A stretch of 64,000 nucleotides of DNA from Theristus sp. LFF4_11 (Eukaryota; Nematoda; Chromadorea; Monhysterida; Xyalidae): positions 1-64,000 of the forward strand of contig JASANC010001704.1 of assembly GCA_030248135.1 (NCBI GenBank), given 5' to 3'. This document shows, piece by piece, positions 29,401 through 60,100 of the stretch; positions within the stretch are counted from its first letter, which is position 1, and each line of letters begins with the position of its first letter. The translations under genes and the position numbers were made by a program. Below the pieces are notes generated by a model. The model saw only the letters and a list, made by a program, of their open reading frames with translations. It was not told the DNA's origin and searched no databases.

Positions 29401-32146
29401 ATACTGGTATTCTGAAATCGACATCAAAGTTATCTCTCAACATCGGCTCATCGTTTGTGGTGAGCCCGACGTGACTCGAGCACGCAACCTTCTGATTATC
29501 AATTTTTTTAGATTGCACTTTCAGTCACTTCGCCTGCACGCAGCAGAGAAACGCGGTTTCCTGAAACAACGAACCAGCTGGCGAGGCAGTGGCGAAGTGG
29601 TCGAGACATCCGGAACAACCGGCGACCACGTCCGCCCGTCCACGACGTCGCCATTCGACGAACGTCGTCGTCGATGACATGCCACGCAATCGTGCAGACA
29701 ACGACGCACACTGCTGCCGCTGCGGACGCCACGTGGCGCCACGTTTTGACAACTGACATCAGAGTCGATGTTACTGGCGTCCAGTTGGCGTGCTCCCGAC
29801 CGGGATTGCTCCGAAAACGGTGAACGCTGTTCGCTCGACAGCAACTCAACGTTTCTCGTGTCGTCTGGCGCCGTTTTGGAAGACGACGTCGGCTTGTTGT
29901 CCGATGCGTCGATCGAGTGATTGATGTCCGCGATTGACGGTTGAGCTGAATGGGAACAAGTTTTTTTCTATTTTGTCTGAGGTAATTTGAAATCTTTACG
30001 TTTCGGGAACGGCTGAATCTGATTTTTTGAAGTCTCAGGTTACGGACATCTGAGGTTTTTGAGACGATGACCGTTTATGCACGACCTAAGCACGATTACG
30101 TCTATTTTGAGACAACCCCCTCCCTCTGAGTCTGACCGGGTCACTTATTGACTGAATTGACTGTTTACAAAAAGGCGCACACCGAAGAACGGTACACCAT
30201 CATCCTTCACACCAGAACTTCTGAACTCGTTTTTCACAATAATGCCACAACAGCTGTATCTTGCAGAACCAACACAAAAAACAACAAACCCAAAATAGGC
30301 GCACCGCAAGCCAGCTCATTGGCATTGGACGCAAGCTGAGCAGTCGCCGCGGACGACGACACGAGCGCCCCATGCGAGCAGTGCGTCGTCGTTTGCGGGT
30401 TCTTCGGCGTCGTCAACGTTCCGCCGTCGCCGCCGACGTTCACCGGCGACGACGCGCGACTCTCGTCTTTCGGATCCATGTCCATGTCGAGAAAATCGAA
30501 CTGTGCAGGATCGTGCTGCATTGGTTGATGATTGCAGATTGGCGGTTGTATCTGTTGTTGTTGGTGTTGTGCTGCCGACGAGGACGGATGCTGTGCGATG
30601 CTGTCTAGTGCGCCTAAGGATACAAATGTGGCAAAAAAATGTTCCATAACAAGAAGGCAACGTTTCATTCAGTAGTGGTTGAATTCGGTTTTGAATGAAT
30701 TGAAGCGAGGTGATTTTAGAGTTCAAAGAATTCAACGAATTCAGGCTGTTTTTGGGAAACTGACGGCTACTTGGTTGAGATTCTGCTGCTTACATCAGCT
30801 GGAATCCGCCGGTTGCACAAAGGTTCTGTGCAAATCAACAATCGAACACGAACAATCTCAACCATCAATGTATCATTGATCTACTCACAATCTTCAGACT
30901 GCAGCGGCTTTTCTAGCTGGGGCAAACTAAACACCAAAAAAAGAAAAACTCACCGGCCGACGGCGTCAACGAAGACAACGAGCTCGCCGGTGAACTGCGC
31001 CCACTGGATCGCGAATCGTGCTCATCGCTTTCTTCCTCTTTCGCCTCTTCCTCCTCCTGCGCCGCTGACACGGCGTACATTTCATCGAGCGCACATTGAT
31101 TGTCGTCTCGATTTGACCGATCATCATCATTCTGATTTGAAGTCGGTCGATTTTCATCCGCGTCAAGCAGAACGACTGTTGACTGTTCATCAACGTCAAC
31201 GTCTTTTTCACTGTTTTCAGTATTTTCTGTCATTTCGTTCGCCACTTCAACAATTGTTCTGTCGACGAATTCACCATTGTTGTCGCTCGTTTCTGTCGTA
31301 CCTAGGGTTGTTAAAAAAAACAAAAATCGTCATTTTTGTTTTTTTTTTAAATTTAAAAAAAAAAATTTCAAAAATCAAAGTTGTGTTAAATCAATCAGGG
31401 AGTCCGAAGAACCACATATGATATGCAAGCGCCTCCCGAATGACTCCCGTATGGCGGAACTTTGCAGATTTTGTTTTGGTGACCTCAATTACCCCTTTTC
31501 CAAACCATCACCATGCCTCTTCTTGTGTTTTGACCTTTAAAACGTCACTAATTGTCCCCAGCTAAGCTAATGCTAAAGTGAAGACAAACATACCGCCTTG
31601 AAATTCGATCAATTCTTCTGATGGTGTCGCGACGACACGACACGAAGCAGCAACCAGACAACGTAGCGCTTGCAAACGGAGCAGCGAGCACAATCGGACG
31701 CTCTGCGAGGCGAATCGTCACCTTATCTGCATCGGAAATGGTAGGCTAAGCTTTGGGACGCTCAAAAACTTCATCGCAGATGTTGTCGAAGCCTAAAATC
31801 AGTCGGTAAAACGGCCCAAAATCGACTGCTAAAGGTTTTACGAGGTATAATCAAAGAAAATTTTTGTTGAACTTTCGAAAAATTGTGCCAAAATTGAGGT
31901 TTTCAGAGCATATTAGAGAAAAATTTTTCGAATTTAAAAAAAAAAATCGGCATTTTTGTTTTTTTTAATCACTTTTTTTTAAAATTTTCATTTTTGTTTA
32001 ACAACCCCAGTCGTACCATCGTTTTTCATGGTCGTCGTCGTATTTTGATTATTTCTCGAGTCTCCGTTGACTTGTCTCTCATTCTCATTCTCATTTGAAT
32101 TTTTCTGCAAAAGTGCATTTTTATCTTGAAAAGCTTTTTTTGACAT
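26485..32146 (-). CDS. Protein with C39/papain-like cysteine protease signature and acidic disordered N-terminus
   Basis: Nine coding exons, in transcript order: 32017-32146, 30954-31301, 30305-30613, 29758-29945, 28971-29241, 28409-28631, 27481-27704, 27014-27306 and 26485-26670 (TGA), giving 723 residues in frame. Residues 1 to about 325 are low-complexity Ser/Asn/Asp/Glu/Gln-rich with an EEEEAKEEESDEHD stretch. The C-terminal half has GVGPSSCGYVAVYHALKVL, a Gly-x-Ser-Cys-Gly nucleophile motif at a helix start. About 140 residues later comes HHQVCYAVD, then VSLLNP, giving the Cys-His-Asn order of C39-like and other papain-fold enzymes. A preceding ITFQLLNLARRRGPFSDVQL then WWDG segment looks like a beta-rich domain I do not recognise. 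Substrate and name are unknown; the protease call is inference. Intron 1 is a complete hAT-like element. The end of exon 4 (29758) is uncertain, because an open frame continues to about 29530. Confidence 0.7.
27949..28258. repeat. Direct tandem duplication, period 154 bp
   Basis: Two adjacent copies, starting at 27949 and 28103, each run from GAGAGTAGCGATTTAGTGGA to GGACATAACACACGACA and differ by only a few bases. It lies in the 704-bp intron between exons 6 and 7 of the cysteine-protease-like gene. It is a recent local duplication and not a known mobile element. Confidence 0.85.
31303..32009. mobile_element. Non-autonomous hAT-like element acting as an intron (family A, copy 1)
   Basis: 707 bp with terminal inverted repeats TAGGGTTGTTAAA and, complemented from the right end, TGGGGTTGTTAAA. 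It is flanked by a perfect 8-bp duplication GTCGTACC (31295-31302 and 32010-32017). An 8-bp duplication and TAGGG-type ends fit the hAT superfamily. There is no transposase. It interrupts codon 44 of the cysteine-protease-like gene; unspliced, the frame meets TGA within ten codons. Copies 2 (32377-34217) and 3 (36005-36717) share its interior. Confidence 0.88.
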
Positions 32147-32376
32147 CGTCCGTCTCTTCGTTTATTGATTGATGGGTTAACGTCGACGGGATGTTGACTG
32201 CGTTTTTCGTTGTTTTTGCTGTCGCCGTTCGTTCTGCGTTGTTTCAGCCGCATGAGCATTGAGCATCCGCATTATCGGGGTTGGAATCATTTTTTTCACG
32301 TTTAATGGGTGCGACGACGCTGCTGCCTAATATAATATATCCTGTGTAAATACAATTTTTTTGTATGTAACATTAG

Positions 32377-34217
32377 TAGGTTTGTAAAAACAAAAATCGA
32401 ACTTTAAAAAAAAGTGATCAAAAAAAACAAAAATGCCGATTTTTTTTAATTCGAAAAATGTTCCTTTACTATGCTCTGAAAACCTCAAATTTGGCAAAAT
32501 TTTTCGAAAGTTCAACAAAAATTTTCTTTGATATTACCTCGTAAAACCGTCAGCAGTCGATTTTGGACCGTTTTACCGACTGATTTTAGGCTTCGACAAC
32601 ATCTGCGATGAAGTTTTTGAGCGTCCCAAAGCTTGGCCTACCATTTCCGATGCAGATAAGGTGACGATTCGCCTCGCAGAGCGTCCGATTGTGCTCGCTG
32701 CTCCGTTTGCAAGCGCTACGTTGTCTGGTTGCTGCTTCGTGTCGTGTCGTCGCGACACCATCAGAAGAATTGATCGAATTTCAAGGCGGTATGTTTGTCT
32801 TCACTTCAGCATTAGTTTAGCTGGGGACAATTAGTGACGTTTTGGAGATCAAAACACAAGAAGAGGCATGGTGACGGTTTGGAAAAGAGGTAATTGAGAC
32901 GTCACCAAAACAAAATCTGCTAAGTTCCGCCATACGGGAGTAGGGGTGGTAAAAAACGGTTTTTTTCAAATCCATGTATATAAAACGGTTTTTTATACCG
33001 CGTCCGGTTCTTTATACCCGGTTTTTTTACCGACCCAGTATTTGAAGAAACCTGTGATTGCGACAATTTCTGGTGCTCTGATTTTACGCAAACCGCTGAA
33101 TAATGAGTATAAGACCACAATTCTAGCCAGAAACTGTATGTGTTTCAATGGAAACGTATTCCAATTTTGATTTTATTTGAATCGGTGGCGCTTAGAGAGA
33201 ATGCAGCATCAGAAAAATTATCAGATGCGAGTTTAAAACAAAAAAGCTAACGCAAGACAGGTTGACATGTGCAACAGCAAGGAATGTGATACATGCAAAT
33301 CAATTGAACTGACACGATCGAGAGATATGTAACTGCACAACAATTTCACCGCATTTCTAAACACAAAAGATCACCGAAAGACAAAAAGAATCACGAACCC
33401 GCACAGACGAAAGAAGTGAACCAAGAACAAAATTGAAACAGCAAAAAAAATCAGATGGAGATTCGGGTCACTATCACCAGTACAACAGCACGACGACTTC
33501 ACCAACAAAACTTTGAGCAATTTCCGAGTTCAAAGAAACAAAATTTCAAGAAATTTGACTGAATAAATATTGCGGCATTTCTCGTTTATTGTTGAAAATT
33601 TAACCGAATTCTGAAAAATAACCAAATCTTTGCTGTATTAGTTTCTTAACTTTGTCAACAAAAGAACGAGCATAAAAAGCGCAAGCGGCAGATTTAAAGC
33701 GGAAAAAGCGTGAAGCTGTTAAACTACGAAACACAACTTTGCCATGTAGACCAAACTTGAACAGATAAACAAAGAACAAAGCTGGAAAATAAAGCGAACG
33801 CCGACCAGAGCCAGCCCATTGGCGGTCGACCGAGATGGGACATGGAAGGAGAGGCACGGGTCTCAGGGTGCTTTATTTATACCAAGAGCGTGAATTGTGT
33901 TCTCCAGAACATCAAGTTATGAAGTGGCGAAAGTGAAAAATTGAAATGGATGTGCGGAAAACAGTGCATTTTGAGTGATTTCAAAAAGTGAAATTTGGGT
34001 CCTTCGGCGGTATAAAAAACCGGAAAAAAACCAAAATTTACGCGGTAAAATATCGGTAAAATATTTTGGCTCTTTTTTGGCGCTGGTTAAAAAACCGTTT
34101 TTTATACCGTTTTTTATACCGAAAAAAAACGTTTTTTATACCGACCCACCCCTATACGGGAGTCATTCGGGAGGCGCTTGCATATCATATGTGGTTCTTC
34201 GGACTCCCTGATTGATT
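32377..34217. mobile_element. Family A element, copy 2, inverted, truncated and split by another element
   Basis: It is the reverse complement of the 31303-32009 element, starting TAGGTTTGTAAAAAC and running to GGACTCCCTGATTGATT, where similarity stops about 90 bp short of the expected terminus. A 1,214-bp hAT-like element (32941-34154) interrupts it. With copy 1 it forms a large inverted repeat around the 5' end of the cysteine-protease-like gene. Confidence 0.85.
32941..34154. mobile_element. Non-autonomous hAT-like element nested in family A copy 2
   Basis: 1,214 bp with ends TAGGGGTGG and CCACCCCTA, flanked by a perfect 8-bp duplication TACGGGAG (32933-32940 and 34155-34162). Copies 1 and 3 of family A preserve the corresponding unoccupied site, with the TACGGGAG/TACGGGTG target present once. 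Subterminal repeats of ACGGTTTTTTATACCG type fill both ends. The interior has no transposase frame. Confidence 0.92.
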
Positions 34218-35446: not shown

Positions 35447-35931
35447 CATAGTTGTTCTAGGGGGGGGGGGCCTGGGGGGGCCCCGCCCCCCCCCCAAAAA
35501 ATTTTCGAATCTATCTCTATCAGACAGGTTTTTTCGGCTCAGCTATTATCTATCTAAAAAAAATTTTCAGCCAGCTCTCTATCTTTAAATCTTGTCTTCG
35601 AAGACATAAAATGAGTCAATTTTTGACCAAAATTGACCATTTTTGCTCGTAATTCTTGAAAATTTCGCTAATTTTAGGTAAAATACGCGTTTATACTTGA
35701 ATTTTAGTGTATTTTTAGCATTATTTTGCTGTTTTTATAGCTTTTTAGCGTTTTAGCTATCTATCTATCAAATTTCAAAATTTTGAACGGCCCCCCCCCC
35801 AAAGTCACATGGCCCCCCCGCGCCCCCCCCCCCCCCAAAATTTTCCAGCTATCTATCTATCTAGAAAATTTGCTCCAGCTATCTATATCGGCCCCCCCCC
35901 AACCCCTCGGCTCTGGATTGGAACAACTATG
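35447..35931 (+). mobile_element. hAT-like MITE family D with G/C runs, copy 1
   Basis: 485 bp with perfect 11-bp terminal inverted repeats CATAGTTGTTC/GAACAACTATG, flanked by a perfect 8-bp duplication CACGGGCA (35439-35446 and 35932-35939). The interior alternates long G or C runs with CTATCTATCT tracts. The 8-bp duplication places it with the hAT-type families; it has no coding capacity. Confidence 0.92.
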
Positions 35932-36004
35932 CACGGGCAGATACCCGTGTACCCCCCTCCCCCCCCCTTTACCTCGACACGGGTACTAGACTAGACTCCC
36001 CCCC

Positions 36005-36717
36005 ATGTTTGTCTTCACTTTAGCATTAGCTTAGCTGGGGACAATTAGTGACGTTTTGGAGGTCAAAACACAAGAAGAGGCATGGTGACGGTTTGGAAAA
36101 GGGGTAATTGAGGTCACCAAAACAAAATCTGCAAAGTTCCGCCATACGGGTGTCATTCGGGAGGCGCTTGCATATCATATGTGGTTCTTCGGACTCCCTG
36201 ATTGATTTGGCACAACTTTGATTTTTGAAATTTTTTTTTTAATTTTTTTTTTAAAAACAAAAATGACGATTTTTGTTTTTTTTTAACAACCCTAAACATA
36301 CCGCCTTGAAATTCGATCAATTCTTCTGATGGTGTCGCGACGACACGACACGAAGCAGCAACCAGACAACGTAGCGCTTGCAAACGGTGCAGCGAGCACA
36401 ATCGGACGCTCTGCGAGGCTAATCGTCACCTTATCTGCATCGGAAATGGTAGGCTAAGCTTTGGGACGCTCAAAAACTTCATCGCAGATGTTGTCGAAGC
36501 CCAAAATCAGTCGGTAAAACGGCCCAAAATCGACTGCTAAAGGTTTTACGAGGTATAATCAAAGAAAATTTTTGTTGAACTTTCGAAAAATTGTGCCAAA
36601 ATTGAGGTTTTCAGAGCATATTAGAGGAAAATTTTTTGAATTTTTTTTTTTTTAATCGGCATTTTTGTTTTTTTTAATCACTTTTAAAAAAAAAATTATT
36701 TTTGTTCAACAACCCTA
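36005..36717. mobile_element. Family A element, copy 3, internally rearranged
   Basis: The segment 36005-36294 is the left half of the family A element in inverted orientation, ending with its terminus AACAACCCTA now internal. It is followed by the right half in normal orientation from about 36295 to the other terminus AACAACCCTA at 36717. Both termini therefore point the same way. An internal inversion or an aberrant transposition explains this arrangement. Confidence 0.8.
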
Positions 36718-36852
36718 CACCTGAGTGACCTGACCCCCCCCCTCTAAAATTTGGCAAACACCCCCCCCCCCTCACCCAAGGTCCCGCCCGCTTTCGCTAC
36801 TGAATTCCCAATGTTCCGAGTTGCCATCCGGTATCATTATTAGGATTCCTAC

Positions 36853-37316
36853 CATAGTTGTTCCAGAGCCGAGGGGTTGGGGGGGGCCGATATAGATAGC
36901 TGGAGCAAATTTTCTAGATAGATAGATAGCTGGAAAATTTTGGGGGGGGCCGCCCGCGGGGGGGCCATGTGACTTTGGGGGGGGCCGGTCAAAATTTTGA
37001 AATTTGATAGATAGATAGCTAAAACGCTAAAAAGCTATAAAAGCAGCAAAATAATGCTAAAAATACACTAAAAATCAAGTATAAACGCGTATTTTACCTA
37101 AATTTAGCAAAATTTTCAAGAATTACGAGCAAAAATGGTCAATTTTGGTCAAAAATTGACTCATTTTATGTCTTCGAAGACAAAAATTTTCAGATAGATA
37201 GCTGGCTGAGAATTTTTTTTAGATAGATAATAGCTGAGCCGAAAAAACCTGTTTGATAGAGATAGATTCGAAATTTTTTTGGGGGGGGGCCGGCCCCCCC
37301 CCCTAGAACAACTATG
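36853..37316 (-). mobile_element. hAT-like MITE family D, copy 2
   Basis: 464 bp, inverted relative to the copy at 35447, with the same CATAGTTGTTC/GAACAACTATG ends and its own perfect 8-bp duplication ATTCCTAC (36845-36852 and 37317-37324). Interiors are very similar apart from G/C-run length. Two copies with different target duplications show independent insertions. Confidence 0.92.
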
Positions 37317-45149: not shown

Positions 45150-48100
45150 ATGATCCTCCGGATATCTTTATGGGTATGTTCAGTTTCGTTTCTTTTGAAT
45201 CTTGTGATTATGGTCACGGTAAAAAAATTTGCTCTTTCACAGGTTTATCAACGCCAGCTGGTGTTTTCAATTAAAAAAATGTTCAACCAGATAAAACGCC
45301 AGGTTCTCTTAAATTCGCGCGGTTTGTCACTGAGAAAAAAAACCAATCCACCATGGTGGAACTCTTGAAAAACGCATTTAGAAAATCTCCCGTTGTTCGT
45401 AGACCATAGCTGGCGCATGCGAATGCCCATGATAAGGCCGAAACTTTTCTGCGTGCAGCAAGCGAGCAAAAACAAAACTGCAGGTAACCTTTTCATCCAG
45501 GGATCGCCGAAGAATCGCAACAACGCCGTCAAAACAAAACAAAACTGTAGCCCAAAAAAATCCCACCAGCAACACCATTCACCATTTGTTACAGATTGCC
45601 ATTCTCCATTTCTGCCGACTGGCGAACGGCGCCGACATGATCTGCGCCCCGCTGATGCCCGAGGGCACCCTCGGTGCGTTACCGGACGGCTGTCGATGGT
45701 TGACGGTGACGGATGCGGACGACGGATGTGCGTACTACGACCTGGAGTGCTCCGATCCGGGTTCGTAGAGATTTTTGTTTGAAAATGATCGAATTTGTGG
45801 CCTTTTAAGCCAGATCTTATTTTGGAAATGTGTTCAGCAACACTGTTTTATAGTGCGACACTTTGTAGTATCACTTATGTACGGAATGGCCGATTAATAA
45901 ACATATGGCAGCTTTTTCAAGGTGCAAGGAGACCGAAAAAATTGAGCAGAAGAAAAAGGCATTGTGTGTGTGTGTCAAATTTAACTAAGATTCTCAGTTC
46001 TTTTATGTTTATTCTTTGTTCAATTTTTCTCCCCTTTGCACACACGGACACGATCTTGGCATTCTTGAAAAAACAACAACTCCTTGTCTGCGACTGATCT
46101 CGCCGTAATGGAGAAAAATACAAAAACTGCCTGATTTATTCGGCCATACTGTACACTCGACATCAGTCTCGCGCGTTTCTGCTTCAGAATTCGACAAAAC
46201 CTGTTTCCTGCCTGAGAAACGCGGCCCCGGCAAACAGATGATCATTCGCTATCATTACGACACCCGCTACGGTCGGTGTCTTCCGTTCATGTACAGCGGC
46301 GAGAAGGCGAACGCGAACAATTTCGCCTCGATGGGCGACTGCCAGCGGCGCTGCGGCGGCGTGGTCGCACTCGCGAACATGGCGCGCATTGGTACAGTCG
46401 AACTCTATAACATAATCCAACTAGCCGATTGGTCGATACATGTATGTATTGTACAGATATTCTGAGCGTGACTTGCTGTGAAGGCGGAGTTTTTCGTTTG
46501 CATAGAATCTGTTCATCACGTGACCACCAACCAATCAGCTAGTTGGATATGTTATTGAGTTATTGAGACCGAATGTGTTAGATACCGTATATTCCATGGG
46601 CCTGTAAGCTTGTCATTGCACTGTAACTGCAATTATTTAGCGTCTTTGTTTTTCATTCCCTCTTTGTTCACGTTTTCCAGCTTGTCCTCTCCGCCCGCTT
46701 CCTGCTCCACCAGAGGGCTGCAACTACGAAACGGTCAACGGTCCTGACGGATGCCCGGATTACAAACTCAAATGTACTGGTTAGTGCCGATCAAAGTTCA
46801 TTAATAGTGACCGGCATGTTCAATGGAATGCATAATTCTATTTTGAAGATATTTTAACGAGTTTACTGTTCCAAATCTGTTTTTTGTTTGTTTTGTTGGA
46901 GTTTGAAACGTAGCCGTGCAGTGTGTGTGTCAACGAAAACAAGGCACTTACTCTTTGTTGTCCCGTCAAAATCCAGCTGTCTTCTGTTACGCTTCATGTC
47001 CGTTGTCTGCCAGAACAAAAACCGCATATTCTTTTCAAATTCCGTTTGCAGTTCCGCCGCCGTTTCGTTCCTGCGCTTTCCATTGCAGATCCATGCGCCA
47101 CCATTCAGTGTCCCCCATGTAATCTCTGTATCAACGGCACCTGTGTGCTGGCGCCCGTCGCGACCGGCTGTCATTTAGCCGTCTGCCAGGACGTTTACTG
47201 CCCAACCGACCGCGCGTGTCGATCTACAGACAACGGTCGCGAGCCGGTGTGCGCGTTCATTTACGTCGCCGACGACTGTCTGCCGCGGGAGGACGTCGGC
47301 CGATGCGACGGTCGCCAGACGGCGTGGTACTACGATTTGGACACGACGAAATGCGAACGATTCACGTACAGCGGCTGCGGCGGCAACAGCAACCGCTTCA
47401 ACAGTGTCGCCGTCTGCGAGGACCGTTGCATGGGCGTGTCGGTGTCGTCGAACGTCGACGCGGTCGAAGGCAGCTGCGCCACGATCCTCTGTCACCCGCC
47501 GTTGGTGTGCAAAATCGCGAACGGTCGAGCGCAGTGCGTGTTCTCGGAGAGTTTTCTGAACTTTGGCATTGTGGCCGCACCGTTCATTCAGCCGCGGTCA
47601 GCGACCGCCAGTAGTACGGTCCCGCCCGAGTGTCGTCTGCCGCCGAACGGCGGTCACTGCACCGGCAACGCGGTCGCCTGGTACTTCGACGTCGGCCTTC
47701 GGATTTGTCTGCAGTTCCGCTACAGCGGCTGCGACGGCAACGCGAACCGCTTCGAGTCGGAGGCGCTCTGCAGGCAGCGGTGTCGTGCGCACGGCGGTCT
47801 CGCGGGCGCATTGGCGCCGGGCTGCGAGCATATCCGTTGTTGGCCGGGCAGTCGTTGCGTGCTGATTGGTCGACAGGCGACCTGTATCGGCACGCCGGCG
47901 GAAGATTTCGGAGCGTTCACGCCGCTAACCAGACAGCCAACGCTGGATGTTATTACTGGCACGCAGCGGCGAACGACGCAGACACTTCAGGAGACAACGA
48001 CGCCCGCGCGAGACTCTTCCGAAGAGGGTACCCAAGCTACAACCGCGCCTCCTGAACGACCGGACGAAGAGACGATCTGTGCGGATGTGTTCTGCCCGAC

Positions 48101-51100
48101 TGCGAAAATCTGTCGAGCCGTTTTTCTCGAACCGGTCTGCGCATTCGCCGAATCACCGGCGGAATGTCTGTTTCTTCCCGATCGTGGAAACTGCGCCGAC
48201 AGTCTGATTCAATGGTACTACGATTTAGACCGCAGTGTATGTCGACCATTCAACTACAGTGGATGCGGGGGAAATGGCAATCGATTTGGCACACCGGAAG
48301 AATGCGCAAGTCAGTGCCCATTGCGGAGCAACAAATCGTCGTTAAACACTCCATTGTCAATAACCGTCACTTTGCCAGGCCAGTTACTCTCAACAACTAC
48401 TGTTGGCGATTTTGAAGAGGAAGAGATTATCGAACAAGTAGCCGTGAAACCTGATTTGTCAAGCAGACAAGAAGCGGTTTGTGAGGCTGTGTTTTGTCCG
48501 AGCGGTAAAATTTGCCGAGCAGTGTTCCGCGAACCGGTTTGTGCCTTGGCCGAATCACCAGAAAAATGCTTGTACCTTTTCAATCGTGGAGATTGCTCTG
48601 AAAATCTGGTGCAGTGGCACTACGATTTAGACCGGAGTTCGTGTCAGCCGTTTAACTATACCGGGTGTGGCGGTAACACTAACCGGTTTCGGACGCTACA
48701 AGAATGCAGAAACCAATGCCCGTTGCCAAGTAGCGAACAGCCTTCAGCAAACATCGGTTCTTCAACCACGGATGGCTCGTTTCCAGACGCCTCTACAGCG
48801 GCCGAATCCATTCCTGACTACGTTATTGACAAAGTCACGGTGCAACCGGAATTGGCGGACCGACACAGCGCCGTATGTCGAGGCGTGTTCTGTCCGGTTG
48901 GCAAAGTCTGTCGCGCTGTCTTCCGCGAGCCAGTCTGTGCGTTGGCTGAAAGTCCGGAGGATTGTATGTTTCTCCCTGACGGTGGCAACTGCGATGACCA
49001 CGTCGTTCGGTGGTACTATGACTTGGATGACGGCTCATGCCTGCCGTTCAACTACAGTGGATGCGATGGCAATGGTAATCGATTTGGCACGCCAGACGAA
49101 TGCAGCAGTCAATGTCCATTACCAATTAACAAGCCAGTTGTAACAGATGGTGCGATTGGAACTGCGGAAAACTCGACGGAAGATTTGATGACCAAGGACG
49201 AAAACATTTTGGACTATGTTATACAGCGAGTCACAGTGCAATCAGAAGCAGCCAACCGAGCAAACGCCGTCTGCAAAAACGTGTTCTGTCCCAGTGAAAA
49301 AATCTGCCGAGCAGTGTTCCGGGAGCCGGTTTGTGCTCTGTCCGACAGCCCGCAGAAATGCCTTTTTCTTCCGGACAGTGGGAATTGCACTGACAATCGC
49401 ATTCAATGGTATTTTGATTTGGACCAACATTCATGTGTTCCATTCAACTACAGCGGCTGCGACGGAAATAAGAACCGCTTCAATTCGAAGACCGAATGCA
49501 ACAGTGAATGTCCACTTCCAAAATCAGACGAAACTATTGTTGACCGCAGCGGTGTCGCCACAATCACGGGACCAGAAAGTCAGCCGTTTTTAAGAGCCAC
49601 TGATAGTGGGCCCGAGTCCGAAAGTCCGATTAAACTAGCTACGGTCGCTCCGATGATCACTGCTCGACAGAAAGCCGTTTGTAAAAATGTTTTCTGTCCA
49701 GATGGCAAAGTATGTCGAGCTGTGTTTCGTGAACCGGTCTGTGCGTATGCAGACTCGCCAGAAGAATGTCTGTTCCTTCCTCGCTTTGGAAATTGTGACG
49801 AGAATGCTCTGCATTGGTATTATGACTTGGACGAGATTCTTTGTCTTCCGTTTAATTACAGCGGTTGCGGCGGTAATGACAACAATTTCAAATCGGATGC
49901 TGAATGCGACCGTAATTGTCCGTTGAAAACACTTCTTGAAGAAGAAGAGACGACAGGAGGGAGTGCCAATTCAGAGCGAGAAAATGTCGACAAAGTTGTT
50001 GTATTGCCTGATTCTACTGATCGTCAACAATCAATTTGCAGCAACGTCGTTTGCCCAACCGACAAGATCTGTCGCGCCGTCTTCCGGGAGCCCGTTTGTG
50101 CATTGGCGTTATCACCAATCGACTGTTTGTTTCTTCCCGACTACGGAGACTGCGATGACAGTTACGTTCAATGGTATTACGATTTGGACGAAACCCAGTG
50201 TGTTACCTTCAATTACAGTGGCTGCAATGGTAACAATAATCGGTTCGGTTCGGAACTGGAGTGCAGTTTGCAATGTCCATTGAATACATCAGCAGAAATT
50301 CTCTCAACTGTTGCTGAACTACCTGGCACTACCCAAAGTGACTCGTTTACCGTCGCCAGTACCCCAGCATCAAATACCCCGGAGGAATTTTTTGAGCAAG
50401 TGATCGTGCTGAATCCGTCCGCTAGCCGGCTAGAAACGATTTGCAAAAATGTTTTCTGTCCACCCGAAAAAGTCTGTCGCGACGTGTTTCGCGAGCCGGT
50501 TTGTGCGCTCGCTGGCTCTCCACAGAAATGTCTGTTCCTTCCAGATCGTGGAAAGTGTGAAGAGAACTATATCCAATGGTACTATGATCTAGACGCGAAT
50601 GCGTGCAGAGAATTCAATTACACTGGATGCGACGGCAATGACAACCGGTTCGAAACGGAAAACGAATGCAGTACACAGTGTCCGTTATCCAAATCGAGCA
50701 CAGAAACAGTATCGGAAATTGGTTTGCCGCTTGAAAACATTCCGGTTTGCGGCGCCGTGGTTTGTCCACAAGACAATATTTGCCGCGATATCCTGGGCGA
50801 ACCGGTGTGTGCTCCGCCGTCACTACCGGAGCAGTGCTTGTTTCTGCCGTCGCGCGGAACCTGCACGGGCAACTATATGCAGTGGTACTTTGATCGCGAC
50901 CGAAACGCTTGCTTGCAGTTCACGTACAGTGGCTGCGGTGGTAACGTGAATCGGTACAGTAGCTTCAATATCTGCGCACGTCAGTGTGACATGCCGACAG
51001 CCGAACTCGACTCGGGCGTTTTGAGCCAGCCGTCAATTCCGGTCGTCCTGTCAACAGTGCCACACAATAATGCACGCAACCTCACGTGCTGTGGGCTGCC

Positions 51101-54100
51101 GAAGGATCCGGGGCCATGTCGCGCGCGAATACCAAGGTATTACTACGATACAGGATCAGACACGTGCGCGCCGTTCGATTACGGCGGCTGCGGTGGAAAC
51201 GAGAACAACTTTGAACGACTTCAAGATTGTGTTGATCTGTGCGTTGTCTCGACTAAATCAAATGGCCACACAACGACAATACCGTCTGGCGATTGTTTCC
51301 TTCCGAGAGATCCGGGCACGTGCGATGGAAACGAGCCGCACTGGTATTACAACGCCGAAATCCGCGTATGCATGCCGTTCACCTACACCGGCTGCGAGGG
51401 CAATGCGAACCGGTTCCATACACTTGATGACTGTACTGAAAAATGTTCTGCGTTCGATTCTGCAGATTCATGTGCAAATGTTCTATGCCCTGATGATACT
51501 GTCTGCCATTCACTGAGTACTGGTGAGCCAGTTTGTGCGCCATCAAAAGTGCCGGATCGCTGTCTCGAAATACCTGACGCAGTTTTGTGCTTTGATGTTA
51601 ACTTCCAACAGTGGTACTATGATGTTGACAGCCGAACCTGTAAGCAACACGCTGGTAATCGTTGCAGTGCTGGCGTGAATGGGTTCGGCAGCTTCGACGA
51701 TTGCCACTCAACTTGTTCCGTTGGGCCTGTTAACTCATGCTCTGACGTTGTTTGTCCCGCTAATAGACTGTGTCGATTGGTCAACAATGAAGCGCCAGTG
51801 TGTGCGTTCAACGATCAACCCCCAGAATGCTTGTTTGCGGCGGTGTCAACATCCTGCGAAACTGATGATGAATTTCGTTGGTTCTACAATCTCGAGACAA
51901 ATCAGTGCCATTTGTTCGATAGGTCGGCTTGTGGAACAGGCTCAAATAAGTTTAACAGCGCAGCGTCATGCGTCCGTAACTGTGTCTCAAACGCCTCTGA
52001 TGCAATTGACTTGAAGTTATCGTTTGGCCGAAACAACCTGGCAATTCGAGCTAGCGACCTGCCAATTTCCGACAGCGAAAATTCGGCGCAACTAGAGAAA
52101 CAAACAGAAATCGCGGTTGAAACTGCAGCACAGATTGTTTCTGCACCTATTACCAATAAGGTGCCGACTGCATGTACGCTTCCGAGGGAGCGGGGTCCAT
52201 GTAGAAATTTCAGCATTCGGTACCATTACAAAAACTCCGCCAATCGATGCGAACCATTCGTGTATGGCGGGTGCAACGGAAATGCAAATAATTTCCAATC
52301 GATGTCGAAATGTCAAGGTGTCTGTATTGAGGCTGGTCAGTAATGATGCTATTTTATTCAGTTGCTTATATTTATGTTTGCTTTAAATGTCCAGTTGAAC
52401 ACGCACTAAAAGTCTACTTGTATAAGGCAAACTTGAATTAATCATGAAACAAACACAGGGAGGTTCTACAAAGCTACCGAATATCAGCTACGTCAGAAAC
52501 ATTTCAAGTTTGAACTGGAATTTGCTTTGATGACAATGCAGATGTTTTAATTGTAGTTGTTACTCGGTAGCATCGGTTTGATTTCACCCTGCTTAACGTT
52601 GACGGTATACAGTCGAACTCTAAATGATAGGGAATCAGCTGATTAGTTGGCGATTACGGCATGCATGATTTCTGTGCAAACCAAACTCCGCCCCCACAGC
52701 AATGCCTGCACAAAAAGCATGCATACCGTAATCACCAACCAATCAGCTGATTTCCCATGATTTAGAACTTGACTCTAGAATTAACCCTGTCTTGCAGATG
52801 CATGCGCCACCATGCTGTGCCCGCCGTGTAATCGCTGCGCGAATGGCAGCTGTGTCATGGACACAATGTCCACTGGTTGTCATTTGGCTGTTTGTAACGG
52901 CGTGCAATGTCCCAGCGATCGCATATGCCGGTCGCCAGATCGCGGGCAAACCGCCGTTTGCGCGTTTCTGCACGTTCCGGATCAGTGTTTACTTCGGGCG
53001 GACCCGGGCCCATGCAAAGCGATCAAGCCGATGTGGTTCTACGATCCGTCGAACGATGCTTGCGAGCAGTTCTCATACGGCGGATGTCGCGGAAACGAGA
53101 ATCGTTTTGCGACGAAATCTGACTGCGAACACCGATGTACGGGCAAGAAGAGGCCGGATGCTAGCGGACGGCCGCCAACCGCCGATGACGAACAACCGAG
53201 AGAGTCGTGCGACTCCGTTCAGTGTTCACCACCGCTCGTCTGCCGGATCGTCAACAATCGTCCGCGATGCGATTTCGTTTCCGACGACAACCGCAGCAGC
53301 AGCAACACAGAACAACCGGGTGAACCGCCTGCAGTGAGTCCGGACGATTCGCCTGCATCAACGACCGCTTGTCATCATCCGCCCGAGACCGGTCGTTGTC
53401 GTGCGGCCTTCAAGATGTGGTACTATGACGCGGCGCTACAGTTGTGTCTGCAGTTCACGTATGGCGGATGCGGCGGAAATGAGAACCGGTTCTCGAGTAG
53501 GGAGCAGTGCGAGAGGCGCTGTCGACCGGAGCAGTCGAGCAGTCTGGACACCAGCGTCAGCAGTGTGTCCGATTGCGCCACGGTCAACTGCGGCCGAGAC
53601 AGCGAGTGCCTGATCATTAACGACCGACCGACGTGCATTCGATCGATTGCGCCAGTGTCTCCGTTGACAGCGTCCGTCTTCGTCGGTCAGCCAGTGCAAA
53701 GTCCGATCTGTCGTCTATCTCGTGACTCCGGTTCGTGTCTCGCCTTCTTCCCTCGGTTCTATTACAACCACGAGCGTCAACAATGCGAGCAGTTCGTCTA
53801 CGGCGGCTGTGGTGGCAACGAGAATCGCTTCGAGACGCGCGAGGCGTGCGAGCGGAGGTGCGCGACGAACGACTCGAATTCTGGTAATTTCAAACGAACG
53901 CTATTACAATAAAAACACCGAAATGTTCAATGTCACAACTGAATGTCCAATGAATGTTACTGTCCTGTTTCAAGCGTCTTGTCCTGTGCCCGATTCTGCT
54001 CGTACGGGTTGTCGGTGGCAGACGTATGGTATTCAGTCGAATGGCTGTCCACTGTACCGTCTCGACTGCACAGCTGCAGGTTGTGGCTGTGTTTCTAACA

Positions 54101-57100
54101 TCAGTGAAGCACTCATCAAGCGCTTCTTGTTTCTTATTTGTGTGTCCATGTGCTCAGGTACCGGACCAGGTGCAGGTGCTGGCTCGACCTGTGCCGCTCG
54201 CCTCTGCCCGGAATGTCATGAATGTCGCGAAGCCCAGCAACCCAACGGCCGTGTTGAAGCGCAATGCGTCGTCGCACCGAACTGCTGTCCACGTTAGTGA
54301 ACGCAGCTCTTTTGTTTTTTTGCAGATATTTTGTTTTTAAGTCGCAGCTACTGCTGAAAACGCAAAAATGCGATCCTATGTGTTTATAGTAGTAAGTCGC
54401 AGCTCTACTGTTGCAAATGAAAAAACGCGATCCTATGTGTAATCAATTGTAAGTTTTTTTATGTTTTTTACCAATTTTTTCAGGAAACCAACGTCAAGTG
54501 GAATGCATTTCCGATCCGTGCCGTTTGCCTGCGCCATGTCCGAGTGCAGTCCACTGCATACCAATCGCTTGTGACCAGTGCAGAGCGCGTTTCTACGACG
54601 CTCACTGGAACGAAGTGCAATGCACGCCCGCTGCGTCGCCCGCCCCACCACCATTGACGGACGTGTGCGCCCGAGTGCGTTGCGGCCAGTGTGAACAGTG
54701 TAAAGCGGTGCGCACAGCAGATGGAGCAACAAGCGCACGCTGTGTCGTGCGGCCTGGCTGTTGTCCGGGTGTGCCAATTGTTTTTTTTTGTTTTCAGTTT
54801 TGTTTATCACAGGAAAAACAGAAAGTGAAACGTCTGGAAACGAGAGTTAACCATTGAGTAACGTTGGCGAACATCATGCATGTTCTCTGGGACGTTACTC
54901 AAGGGGGACGTTTAGCAACGTTACTCCAAAGGTTAGCGACACGGAAAACGTTGCCTGCGCGTCTCAAAATGCACAGCACGGTGGAAACTTGAACGTTTTA
55001 ATCTGGGTTTACTTTTTGGCTCTTTATTGTCAGTTTTTTCAGATGGTTTACTGAAACCTTTGTTACAGCCGGCGTGCCAACAGCAAACTGTTTCGCCGAT
55101 CCGTGCCAGGTGACGGCACGCTGTGACGGCGTTGCGCACTGCGTGTCACAGTACTGCGACGGCTGCACGGCAGTTTTCTACGACCTGGAATGGAATCGAG
55201 TGACGTGTCCGCCGCCAACGCCATCTCCGACCACGGTGGCGCCACCTGACGTGCAAGACCCGTGCGCGCGCGTGCGCTGCCGGGAGTGCCACGAGTGTCG
55301 TTCTTCTGACGGCAATGATGGCCGCAGAGTGGCGAACTGCGTTCGACGCCCATACTGCTGCCCACGTACGTGTGATACCGTCGAAGATACATTTCGCTTG
55401 TTATAGGGCACGAACACACGTCGAACTCTGAATTATAGGGAATCAGCGTCGTCGTTGGTGATCACGTGATGCATGCTTTCTGTGCAGAAATTGCTGTGCG
55501 AGGCTTAGTTTGGTTTGCGCAGAATGTGTGCTTCACGTGTGATCGATCACCAACCAATCAGCTGATTCCCTATAATTTAGAGTTCGTCTGTCTGTTTGAA
55601 CTTTTACAACCTGCTGGCATCCGCAAGTTTTTCATGCGTCCACTTTCAATCCATTTCAGGCGGAACACAGAAAACAGTCTGCAAAGCCAACCCCTGTCAA
55701 ACGGCAACACGTTGCGACAGCGTCGTTCACTGTGTCCCGGACGACTGCGACGGTTGCAATGCGAACTTTTACGACGCACAATGGAACGGTGTCCTCTGTC
55801 CGCAAACGAAGCCGAAGCCGGCGAAGCCAGTGTCTGTGAATGCGTGTTCGCGGATGCGTTGTCGTGCCGGCTACAAGTGTATCGCCATTCGCAAGCGTGC
55901 TTACTGTGTTCGGCCGGAATTTAGCAATGCTGTTGCAGTCAGCGTTACACACTCAACAGGTGTTCATTCATTTGTTTCTTTTTCGTTTTATGGAACTAAC
56001 GAAACGTTTCGTTCGTGAGTGTTTGTGCATTTAATATTTCGGTTAGTTTTTTTGTAAACCCCCTTTTTAGAGTGTCCACTGGTGAAACGACCCGCACCGC
56101 CAGCTGGCTGTGTGTACCGATATCCGAAACCAACAGTCGACGTGCCGTGTCCAGAGCCGCAGGTCGGGTGCTCTCCGTCCAACAGAAGCCACAGTCGACA
56201 AAAACGAGAAGCAGATGTACGTTGAGTGTTAGCTGAAGATAAGCTCACGTCATTGGCAAACAAATCTACACAAACGTTTTTTTAGGATAACCCGTGCGTC
56301 TACATCACGTGTCCTCCGGAGCATCCAATCTGCAGACCGATCCGCAAGCAAGCAATCTGCATCGCTGACACTGGATTGAGCGATTCGTCCGATGATAGCC
56401 TAGCTGTTAGTGAACGCCTTTCTAATCCAGATGTTTGAGTCTATTTTCACATGAACCGCACATCAAAACTGGAGTCGTGTTACTGCTGTATGACCTATTT
56501 TTTCAAACGTGTCTTACTGAAATAACGTCATGTGCCGCAAAACATGCGCTTGCCGTTCACAGCAAACCAGACTTCCCGTTTAGCCGATTTCTGCCCGTAA
56601 ACAAATGGTGAATGTCGAATCAGTCACACCAAACTAAAATTTTAGTGCCTGTACTTTGACAAACGGGCGTTTTTAAAGCAGATGACGTCATTTTAGTACG
56701 GACACATTTGAATAAATCCACAATACATTCTAGGACGCGTGTCTGCTACCAGAAGACCCGGGAACGTGCAGCGGCTCTCAAACGCGCTACGCGTACGATC
56801 GATACACACGGCGCTGCAATGCCTTCCAGTACAGCGGTTGTGGCGGTAACGCCAATCGGTTTTTCAGCGCTCAGGAGTGCGAGCGAAAATGCAGCAGCTT
56901 TGGTGGTATGTTAGAAAGTTTTCTGATGAGTGAGTATCTGCAGCTGTTTGGCACTTATGTTACACCCCCGTGGCCTGATGGTAGCGCGTTAGACTCGTTG
57001 GGGGATCGAGCCGCGTCGAGGGGTGTGTATAGGCATTTAATGACAGTAGAAAACTCGATGGGCATCCTACCCGCCGACATTCCGTATGCGTTTCTAGGCT

Positions 57101-60100
57101 AGCCCTCGCTAAAAAAACATCGTCTAAACTCTCCTACAACAACAACCGCGTCACATTTCAGGCGCCGTCGGCTCGAAGCCCGGCCAATGTCCGGCGCGAA
57201 CGCGCGTCAACGACCACGCGTCCCAATGCGTCAGCGAGTGTCGCTACGACAGCGAGTGCTTCAGCAATCGGAAATGCTGCGAGAGTGAATGCGGCGCGCG
57301 CGTCTGTGTGGCGCCGGACGACACGACGAGCGGCGGGCCCATTTCGGCGGAGCGCATCTGTCGGCAACCGATGCAGCCGGGCAGCTGCGGTGGCCGACTG
57401 ACGCGATGGGCGTACGACGTTCGTACGACGGCGTGCCAGCGGTTCACGTACGGAGGCTGCGGCGGCAACAGTAACAACTTTGTGGACGAACGCACCTGCA
57501 TGGACACTTGCCGATGGATCACTGGTGCGTGCAGTCTAGCTCAATAACATGTGCAACTAGCTGATTGGTCGGTGATCCCGTGATGCATGCATTCTGTGCG
57601 TGAATTGGCTGCGCGCGACGCGGAGTTTGGTTTGCACAGAATATGCATGCATCACGATCACCAACCAGTCAGCTAGTTGGATATGTTATTGAGTTTAAGA
57701 CTGTATTCGTTGTTGACGTAAACTGCACTGAACACATATCACCATGGTCGACGTTTTCAGTGGCACTGAGTCAGAAGTTTTAAATTCAAATAATTTTACA
57801 GACCGTCAAGACAAAATCGGCACCTGCCCATCGCCAACGTTGTTGGGTCGTCCGTTCGGCGGCTGCTCGAATCGTATCGGCCGCTCCAGCGGTTGTCAGT
57901 CGGACAGCGACTGTTTCGGCACGCAGAAATGCTGCGAGAACCGTTGCGGCGCTGGCTACGCGAACGGACGCCAGTGTGCGACGCCAACAGTGGATCCGTA
58001 CGATGGCGACAAGGAATTCTGCTTCCGCCCGCCCGAGCGTGGACCGTGCGAGGGCTCCGAACGACGGTATTTCTACAACGCGAACAGAAAGCGCTGCGAG
58101 ATGTTCACCTACGGCGGGTGTCAGTCAAACGGCAACAACTTTCGAACGATGCGCGAGTGTCGACAGCATTGCGCCGGAGCGGAATGTTTGCTCAACCTTT
58201 ATTGTTGTTGCTGTTTCGGAAAGATTGTGGAACAATGTCAATATCAAGTTTATTTGTAAGCTTCACGGCCAGTTCACATCGAACCATAATGCAGACAAAC
58301 AACAGAACACGTACGAGAAGTCATCAAACAGGTCGGGATGTTTTTTTCGATTTTCAGCCTCCGTGCCGGAGATCTGCGAGCACGAGCCGGAGCGTGGGCC
58401 GTGCTTCGCGAACACGAATCGCTGGTATTACAACCGTCGCACCGGACAGTGTCAGACGTTCGTCTACGGCGGCTGTCTCGGCAACGAGAACAACTTCCAC
58501 ACTGAACAGCAGTGCCGCGCGTCTTGCCAATCCGAGACTATTGGTATTTTTTTAATATCTTTTAGTTTGGTCCCGCATAGACCGGTAAATATAGTTTCAT
58601 GGATGACGCGGGAATTCAAAATTGGTAAAGTGATCTGACTCCCCTACATAGGGCCCCGGCCGAGTCACTTAGGCGACTTTGAATTGCCCCATACAGATTG
58701 AAACTAGTTTTCGTTCCACGTCTGCACGCACACGCAGTCGCAGAACTACTCAAAACATTGACATTAATAATATATTGGAATATTCTTGTTCATTCGATTG
58801 ATTTGATTTGATGCGATTTGATTCTTGTTCACATCGTTGTTGTTGTTGTTGCTTTTCCAGATACACAAGTGGCGGAGTTCTGCCGCCAGCCGATGGATGC
58901 CGGACCGTGTTCGGCCAGGCACGATCGGTGGTACTACAGTGAGCAAACGCGCAGCTGTCAGCCGTTCAAATTCGGCGGCTGCGGCGGCAACGGCAACAAC
59001 TTCTACTCGTCCCATGAATGCTACCGACAGTGTCAAATTGACGGCACTGGGGGCACTGGAGGGGGAGGTAATTCCTGTTGCTAAGAAGTGAAAAAAACCG
59101 TGAAGTTTCGTTCCATTTCACGCGGTTTCATTCTAATATTGCACGTTCACACCACAAATACACCGGCATGAAGTAGTTCGGTGTATTTCGCAATTTGCTT
59201 GCTCATGCTTGTCTCATGAACAGAAGCTGATGCTTTATGCCACATAAATATGCCCTCATTCACCCCGCGCAATCGCTTTGTTTACAGCTGCGTAATTGGT
59301 GACAAAACTTTATGTCAAATAGTATTTTTTGCAGACTGCGATCACGACGGAGAAGAAGAAGAGTACGAAGAGGACGAGGATACACCAGCGGGCTGCCGCC
59401 GGGAGCTCGAGTACTGGCCGGGCGAGCGCTGTCCGCGACGTGTCCTGAACTGCACGTCCGGAGTCTGCGTGTTCCGGCGGTGTCGTCCGTGTCAGCGGTG
59501 TGTCGTCGAGAGCGGACGACTACGGGCGCTCTGTGAAGGTCGGTTTTGGTTGTTGAACGCTGTGGGACCTTTTGTGGTACGGTATATGTCTTACTGTATA
59601 TGCCTGTTCGGTCTCGGCACGATCTCCCACTGCAAACAACCCTCTGGTGGTCCGAGAAAGTTGGTGCCGCAATTTTTTGGCACGATTCTTGCTTTTTTTC
59701 TAACACACTTCCCATCGGCGATATGCGTGATGACGATCACAGCGGTGTCGAGACCGAATGCGCTTCCATACCATTCTTCGAGGCCCAATATTTGGGAGTT
59801 TGGCGTTTTTACTGATGATTTCGTGATGACTGAATTATCTATTCATATCGTTTAGAAAAGTTTTGCGTTGATCCAAGAGTAGGTATTTTCGAAAGTTCAA
59901 ATAAAATGTGGTTGCAGACACACCCAGCTGCCACGGCGGCGGCGGCGGCGGCGGCGGTTCGACGGGCGGCAGCGGTGGTGGCAACACTGGCGGTGGCCAG
60001 CATCACCTGTGCCGCTTCCATAACTGTCGCTTTCCGGGTACCACGTGCCGTGTGATCGGTGGACGCGCTCGTTGCATCCCCGGAGGCACGGGCACTGGCA

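Follow-up and report, generated by a model that had tools for sequence, protein, structure and literature searches.

An apparently young Ac-like hAT insertion with the geometry of an exact intron in a predicted nematode gene

The origin of new introns in animals is an open question, for which a young, intact insertion whose target duplication makes both splice sites would provide a clean test case. The 64,000-nucleotide stretch of Theristus sp. DNA analysed here (the window) holds a candidate of this kind, and the question raised by the locus is whether a transposon lying in a predicted exon could leave the transcript without altering the message. If the element is spliced, a target-site reading that is common for a high-copy hAT family suffices to make an exact intron; if it is not, geometry alone is insufficient. 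The best reading of the locus, although one that we hold at even strength with its denial, is that an ordinary non-autonomous Ac-like hAT element landed at a chance target site that may allow its removal as an intron.

Geometry of the insertion and the predicted host gene

The element is 707 bp long (31303..32009), is described here on the minus strand, the coding strand of the predicted host gene, and has hAT-like, Ac-type ends; it is a non-autonomous copy flanked by a perfect 8-bp duplication, GTCGTACC, at 31295-31302 and 32010-32017, as an earlier note on this DNA had described. Read along the coding strand, the arrangement is GGTACGAC, TGGGGTTGTT...AACAACCCTA, GGTACGAC, with the upstream copy of the duplication at 32010..32017 and the downstream copy at 31295..31302. 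The ends of the element mismatch at one base, with TAGGGTTGTT at the 31303 end and AACAACCCCA at the opposite end, so that one end carries CCCCA; 28 of the 30 loci from a similarity search, a non-random sample of the closest copies (40 of 2,013 candidates scored), have AACAACCCTA on the side of AACAACCCCA. Best local matches to all 29 of the other loci (L002-L030) give identities of 95.1-98.0%, with a median of 96.9%. The perfect duplications together with this identity make the insertion look young, and to judge from its sequence it is a real, young hAT insertion with exact-intron geometry.

That geometry defines a putative 715-nt, phase-1 GT-AG intron (31302..32016, minus strand), proposed from the layout of the sites, their ranks and the phase. 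Joining G|GTACGAC to CCCTAG|GTACGAC on the coding strand removes 715 nt and restores the pre-insertion sequence; the donor GT would be drawn from the upstream duplication (32016-32015), while 31302, the first coding-strand base of the downstream duplication, would complete a TAG as the last intron base. The earlier note had placed the junction between 32017 and 31301, which is correct, and had claimed that the frame is restored by taking out the element and one duplication. The sequence is indeed open once this is done, and it runs in phase with two further predicted GT-AG introns. Left in place, the element brings a stop directly after GVVKQK, its first six encoded codons, in agreement with the early stop foreseen for an unspliced message.

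The host gene is predicted on the minus strand as a split first exon, comprising exon 1a from an ATG at 32146 (32017..32146) and exon 1b (30954..31301, then a donor GTGAGT at 30953), followed by exon 2 (30305..30613), in phase with exon 1, and exon 3 (29521..29945), in phase with exon 2 and ending in a TGA at 29523-29521. The exon lengths sum to a protein of 403 amino acids, and all junctions, including that across the element, are in phase. Synonymous codon choice was scored against 2,092 codons from two Kunitz reading frames in the window, a blunt tool that at another locus, described below, rated a wrong frame above the one with VPS33A homology. By this score exon 1b (taken over 30961-31302; z 4.85, reached by 0 of 500 shuffles), exon 2 (z 2.3, 4 of 500) and exon 3 (z 3.4, 0 of 500, the scored stretch including three codons beyond the stop) are coding-like, with weaker coding support for exon 1a (z 1.5, 27 of 500). 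With exons 1-2 as query, no homologue was found at E <= 0.001 among 1,762 candidates. Ten minus-strand frames, exon 3 included, gave no Pfam match over the cut-off and two of them gave sub-threshold matches. When exon 1b was used at the DNA level to look for a paralogue or an empty allele, the locus itself alone was returned. Elsewhere in the window lie a long papilin-like Kunitz domain array (46923-59855), which includes a 1806-aa open frame and whose protein matches (among 120 listed of 905) show 25-36% identity across many animal phyla, an indication of animal DNA, and a 31-bp tandem repeat, TTTCACACAAAAATTAGAGGCGCTGAATATC, in about four copies at 92-215. The exact C. elegans SL1 leader sequence gave 0 matches.

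The exon reading of the locus presumes that the 43 codons preceding the element are coding, for which the support is weak. When the upstream 150 nt were shuffled by dinucleotides, 97 of 5,000 shuffles had that frame open from an ATG for 40 codons or more; in a second set of 5,000, for which an ATG was not required, 403 were open for 43 codons or more. These counts, along with the shortness of the piece, its codon score and the fact that the exon 1b frame stays open into the element without it, suit an alternative in which the upstream stretch is open by chance and is 5′ untranslated or upstream sequence. The protein would then start lower, for example at a Met near 31233, and the element, lying in a leader or promoter, would form no coding intron. 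An in-frame ATG does exist, however, and the Asn/Glu/Thr-rich composition carries on over the junction by eye; we consider a non-coding upstream stretch unlikely, though it deserves serious weight.

Splice sites were scored with approximate metazoan matrices, and the ranks given here are to be read at that resolution. The acceptor at 31302 (TTTTTTTTAACAACCCTAG|GTA) ranks second of the 87 AG sites in 30700-32200 and is preceded by 129 nt free of AG, while the donor at 32016 (ATG|GTACGAC) is of moderate strength and ranks eighth of the 82 GT sites in the same interval. Two donors within the element, at 31593 and 31721, outrank it on the same matrices, and acceptors at 31573 and 31727, also internal, score slightly under the terminal one. 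The proposed pair would thus be usable in principle, with neither site uniquely strong. It is also conceivable, if rather improbable, that the insertion is disruptive to the gene, with the element retained or cryptically spliced and the allele null or weak and perhaps unfixed in the population. The internal donors and acceptors would permit such an outcome and the young look of the insertion would suit it, but the frame is recovered with the exact site pair, and the internal acceptors score below the terminal one. Returning to exact removal, its possibility for the window copy is supported by the geometry, the in-phase gene model and the site ranks taken together; that this copy is actually spliced as proposed, a step that we infer, has in our judgement an even chance.

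We tentatively propose the following course of events. A non-autonomous Ac-like hAT element, from a family of thousands, would recently have inserted into coding exon 1 of a minus-strand gene predicted to have three exons. Since the 8-bp target starts with GGT on the coding strand, its duplication would provide the GT donor; the final TA of the element, completed by the opening base of the second duplication, would make TAG; and the terminal T-run with the AG-free tail would form a natural acceptor at the element edge. TAGGG-type hAT ends appear as CCCTA at the opposite end, and in either orientation a duplication that starts with G should therefore complete a TAG at the element edge; GT at duplication positions 2-3 should then allow exact removal. 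The model presumes that the spliceosome uses both sites, that the host gene is expressed and that the upstream piece is coding. In this proposal the splice-ready geometry would be a by-product of target choice and hAT end sequence, for which the family would not be tuned.

The element family in the assembly

A search of the assembly (159 Mb, 3,744 contigs) returned 5,006 exact family ends, TTNTTTAACAACCCTA, against 2 for the reversed control, which corresponds to about 2,500 copies on the assumption of two ends each. Perfect 8-bp duplications, the length characteristic of the hAT superfamily, flank 52 distinct copies among 93 loci examined; some of the examined copies, for example those with truncated ends, have no 8-bp duplication. 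The short inverted ends are of the Ac type (Y-A-G-G-G), reading TAGGGTTGTT ... AACAACCCTA in other copies. Over 24 distinct perfect-duplication copies, chosen by similarity, the column consensus of the duplications is GTCCGGAC, with T at position 2 and A at position 7 the commonest bases there, each in 22 of 48 oriented duplications; these two columns are mirror images, both orientations having been counted. hAT elements prefer nTnnnnAn as target, with which GTCCGGAC is compatible. The consensus is a palindrome, again with both orientations counted, and it also resembles the P-element target. Furthermore, at least 150 matches to the hAT dimerisation domain (PF05699), from the 150 of 416 candidates that were scored, indicate that hAT transposases are present in the same assembly.

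Two further family members lie near the insertion on the plus strand of the window. The second copy (32377..34217) is broken and interrupted by other sequence, with family matches at 32388-32941 and 34154-34217; it starts TAGGTTTGTAAAAAC and its left end is degenerate (TAGGTTTGT). The third copy (36005..36717) is internally inverted, 36005-36294 being reversed relative to 36294-36715, and has AACAACCCTA at 36285 and 36708. The T-rich end that the earlier note ascribed to both neighbours is therefore present in the copy at 36005 and absent from the copy at 32377, which is without AACAACCCTA. The rearranged copy lies within a larger, partly C-rich inverted repeat (35474-37302), and C-rich sequence also borders many other family copies.

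The family as a possible source of introns

A hAT introner in an animal, if true, would be a high-copy transposon family feeding introns to genes and seen with its duplications intact. Splice sites contained in the element and its duplication, with exact removal, characterise the window copy and apply across the family only where the duplication starts with GGT. This trinucleotide follows 368 of the 5,006 exact family ends (7.4%), a frequency that makes the exact-splice geometry a modest coincidence and not a rare one. From the duplication columns 5.4% would be expected, so the observed value lies near what target preference alone would give; in the 24 similarity-chosen copies, 4 of 48 orientations start with GGT. 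The commonest column reading, GTC..., has its GT at positions 1-2 and not 2-3, and pairing that GT with the same TAG would lose one base and so put the message out of frame. The preferred target would hence not favour exact introns, and by this reasoning the window target site is a lucky minority case for the family.

The thousands of copies, and the 368 ends followed by GGT, are what might be expected of a genome-wide introner seeding many coding introns, but the surroundings of the copies speak against it. Among 100 listed of the 123 matches to a GGT search, 82 run by eye into five or more C, a count to be read with the fact that the search required a non-G at every third place, which favours C-rich flanks. 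The 52 perfect-duplication copies, a non-random and GGT-enriched sample of the roughly 2,500 (33 of 104 orientations start with GGT, and 62 of the 93 loci were chosen for it), give 67 strand-frames in which each flank stays open for 25 codons. Just two loci reach codon scores of about z 1.5 or higher in both flanks, the window copy (1.5 and 4.5) and L034, so that coding-like sequence borders the element on either side in 2 of the 52 copies. Both of these have GGT on the coding strand, a point in favour of an introner; the next-best locus, L008 (z 2.0 and 0.8), is not of the GGT type.

L034 itself proves ambiguous as a second exon insertion and was set aside. It is a 1192-bp family member with a perfect duplication, GGTTGGTG, whose edge near 22284 of C40 adjoins a VPS33A-like exon (match to PDB 4bx9 at E 5e-12; Pfam Sec1, 33.8 bits). 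Of the 105 complete codons leading up to the duplication, the alignment to 4bx9 reaches as far as residue 104. A local tblastn search with a VPS33A query, spanning roughly three quarters of the protein from its start, gave no convincing further exon within the next 1.5 kb downstream, and a padded protein search for relatives of the locus found none. The homology frame scores 1.6 and 1.6 and a wrong frame 3.3 and 2.7, which makes the codon score a weak guide to frame. Since the duplication marks the end of the homology and no convincing further exon was found within 1.5 kb, the element probably inserted at an existing exon edge or natural donor. Two other loci were likewise rejected: the flanks of L092 (C3015) are not convincingly coding, nor are those of L037 (C51), where only one element end is present.

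The coding flanks of the 52 perfect-duplication copies show no excess, and the introner mechanism that the earlier note had put forward finds no support as a family property, given a consensus without GT at positions 2-3, the C-tracts and the scarcity of coding-like flanks. On this non-random sample we set aside the reading of this family as a genome-wide introner seeding many coding introns, which we regard as very improbable; a genome-wide role finds little support. The broader notion, of an animal genome in which exon insertions of an Ac-like hAT introner with GGT duplications are spliced exactly, escape selection and so feed in new introns, fares hardly better and is in our view most unlikely to apply.

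Comparison with known systems

Perhaps the closest parallel to the window copy is found in maize, where Ds and Ds1, members of the Ac family of hAT elements, reportedly act as introns (Dennis 1988, for Adh1-Fm335; Wessler 1991; Giroux 1994). The Ac-type ends, the 8-bp duplication and removal from the transcript as an intron would be shared, the last being proposed for the window copy and, according to the titles of those papers, reported for maize; the host kingdom and the internal sequence differ. In animals, Tc1 is said to be spliced from C. elegans mutant pre-mRNAs (Rushforth and Anderson 1996), and both cases concern a DNA transposon in an animal gene, although removal by splicing is on record for Tc1 and is proposed here. 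Tc1 is a Tc1/mariner element with a TA duplication, whereas the window copy is a hAT element.

Passages of PMC3260210 on Ac/Ds give terminal inverted repeats C/TAGGGATGAAA ... TTTCATCCCTA and an 8-bp duplication, so that in these respects the window family is alike in its TAGGG...CCCTA ends and its 8-bp duplications. For introners, passages of Gozashti 2022 (PMC9860276) describe splice sites drawn wholly or partly from the duplication, an unchanged message length in most families, and occurrence in 175 of 3,325 genomes, with two groups only among animals and land plants, both of them animals. The terms 'nematod' and 'hAT' are absent from the main text of that paper, and open-licence literature on introners with hAT or nematodes yielded, as judged from titles and the start of abstracts, no animal hAT introner. 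As introners are described in those passages (PMC9860276), the window copy has in common with them a non-autonomous DNA element, inverted ends, duplications and, prospectively, duplication-derived splice sites, but introner families supply many introns and the window family offers one candidate. The window copy is a candidate new case of the behaviour on record for maize Ds, and not evidence for an introner family.
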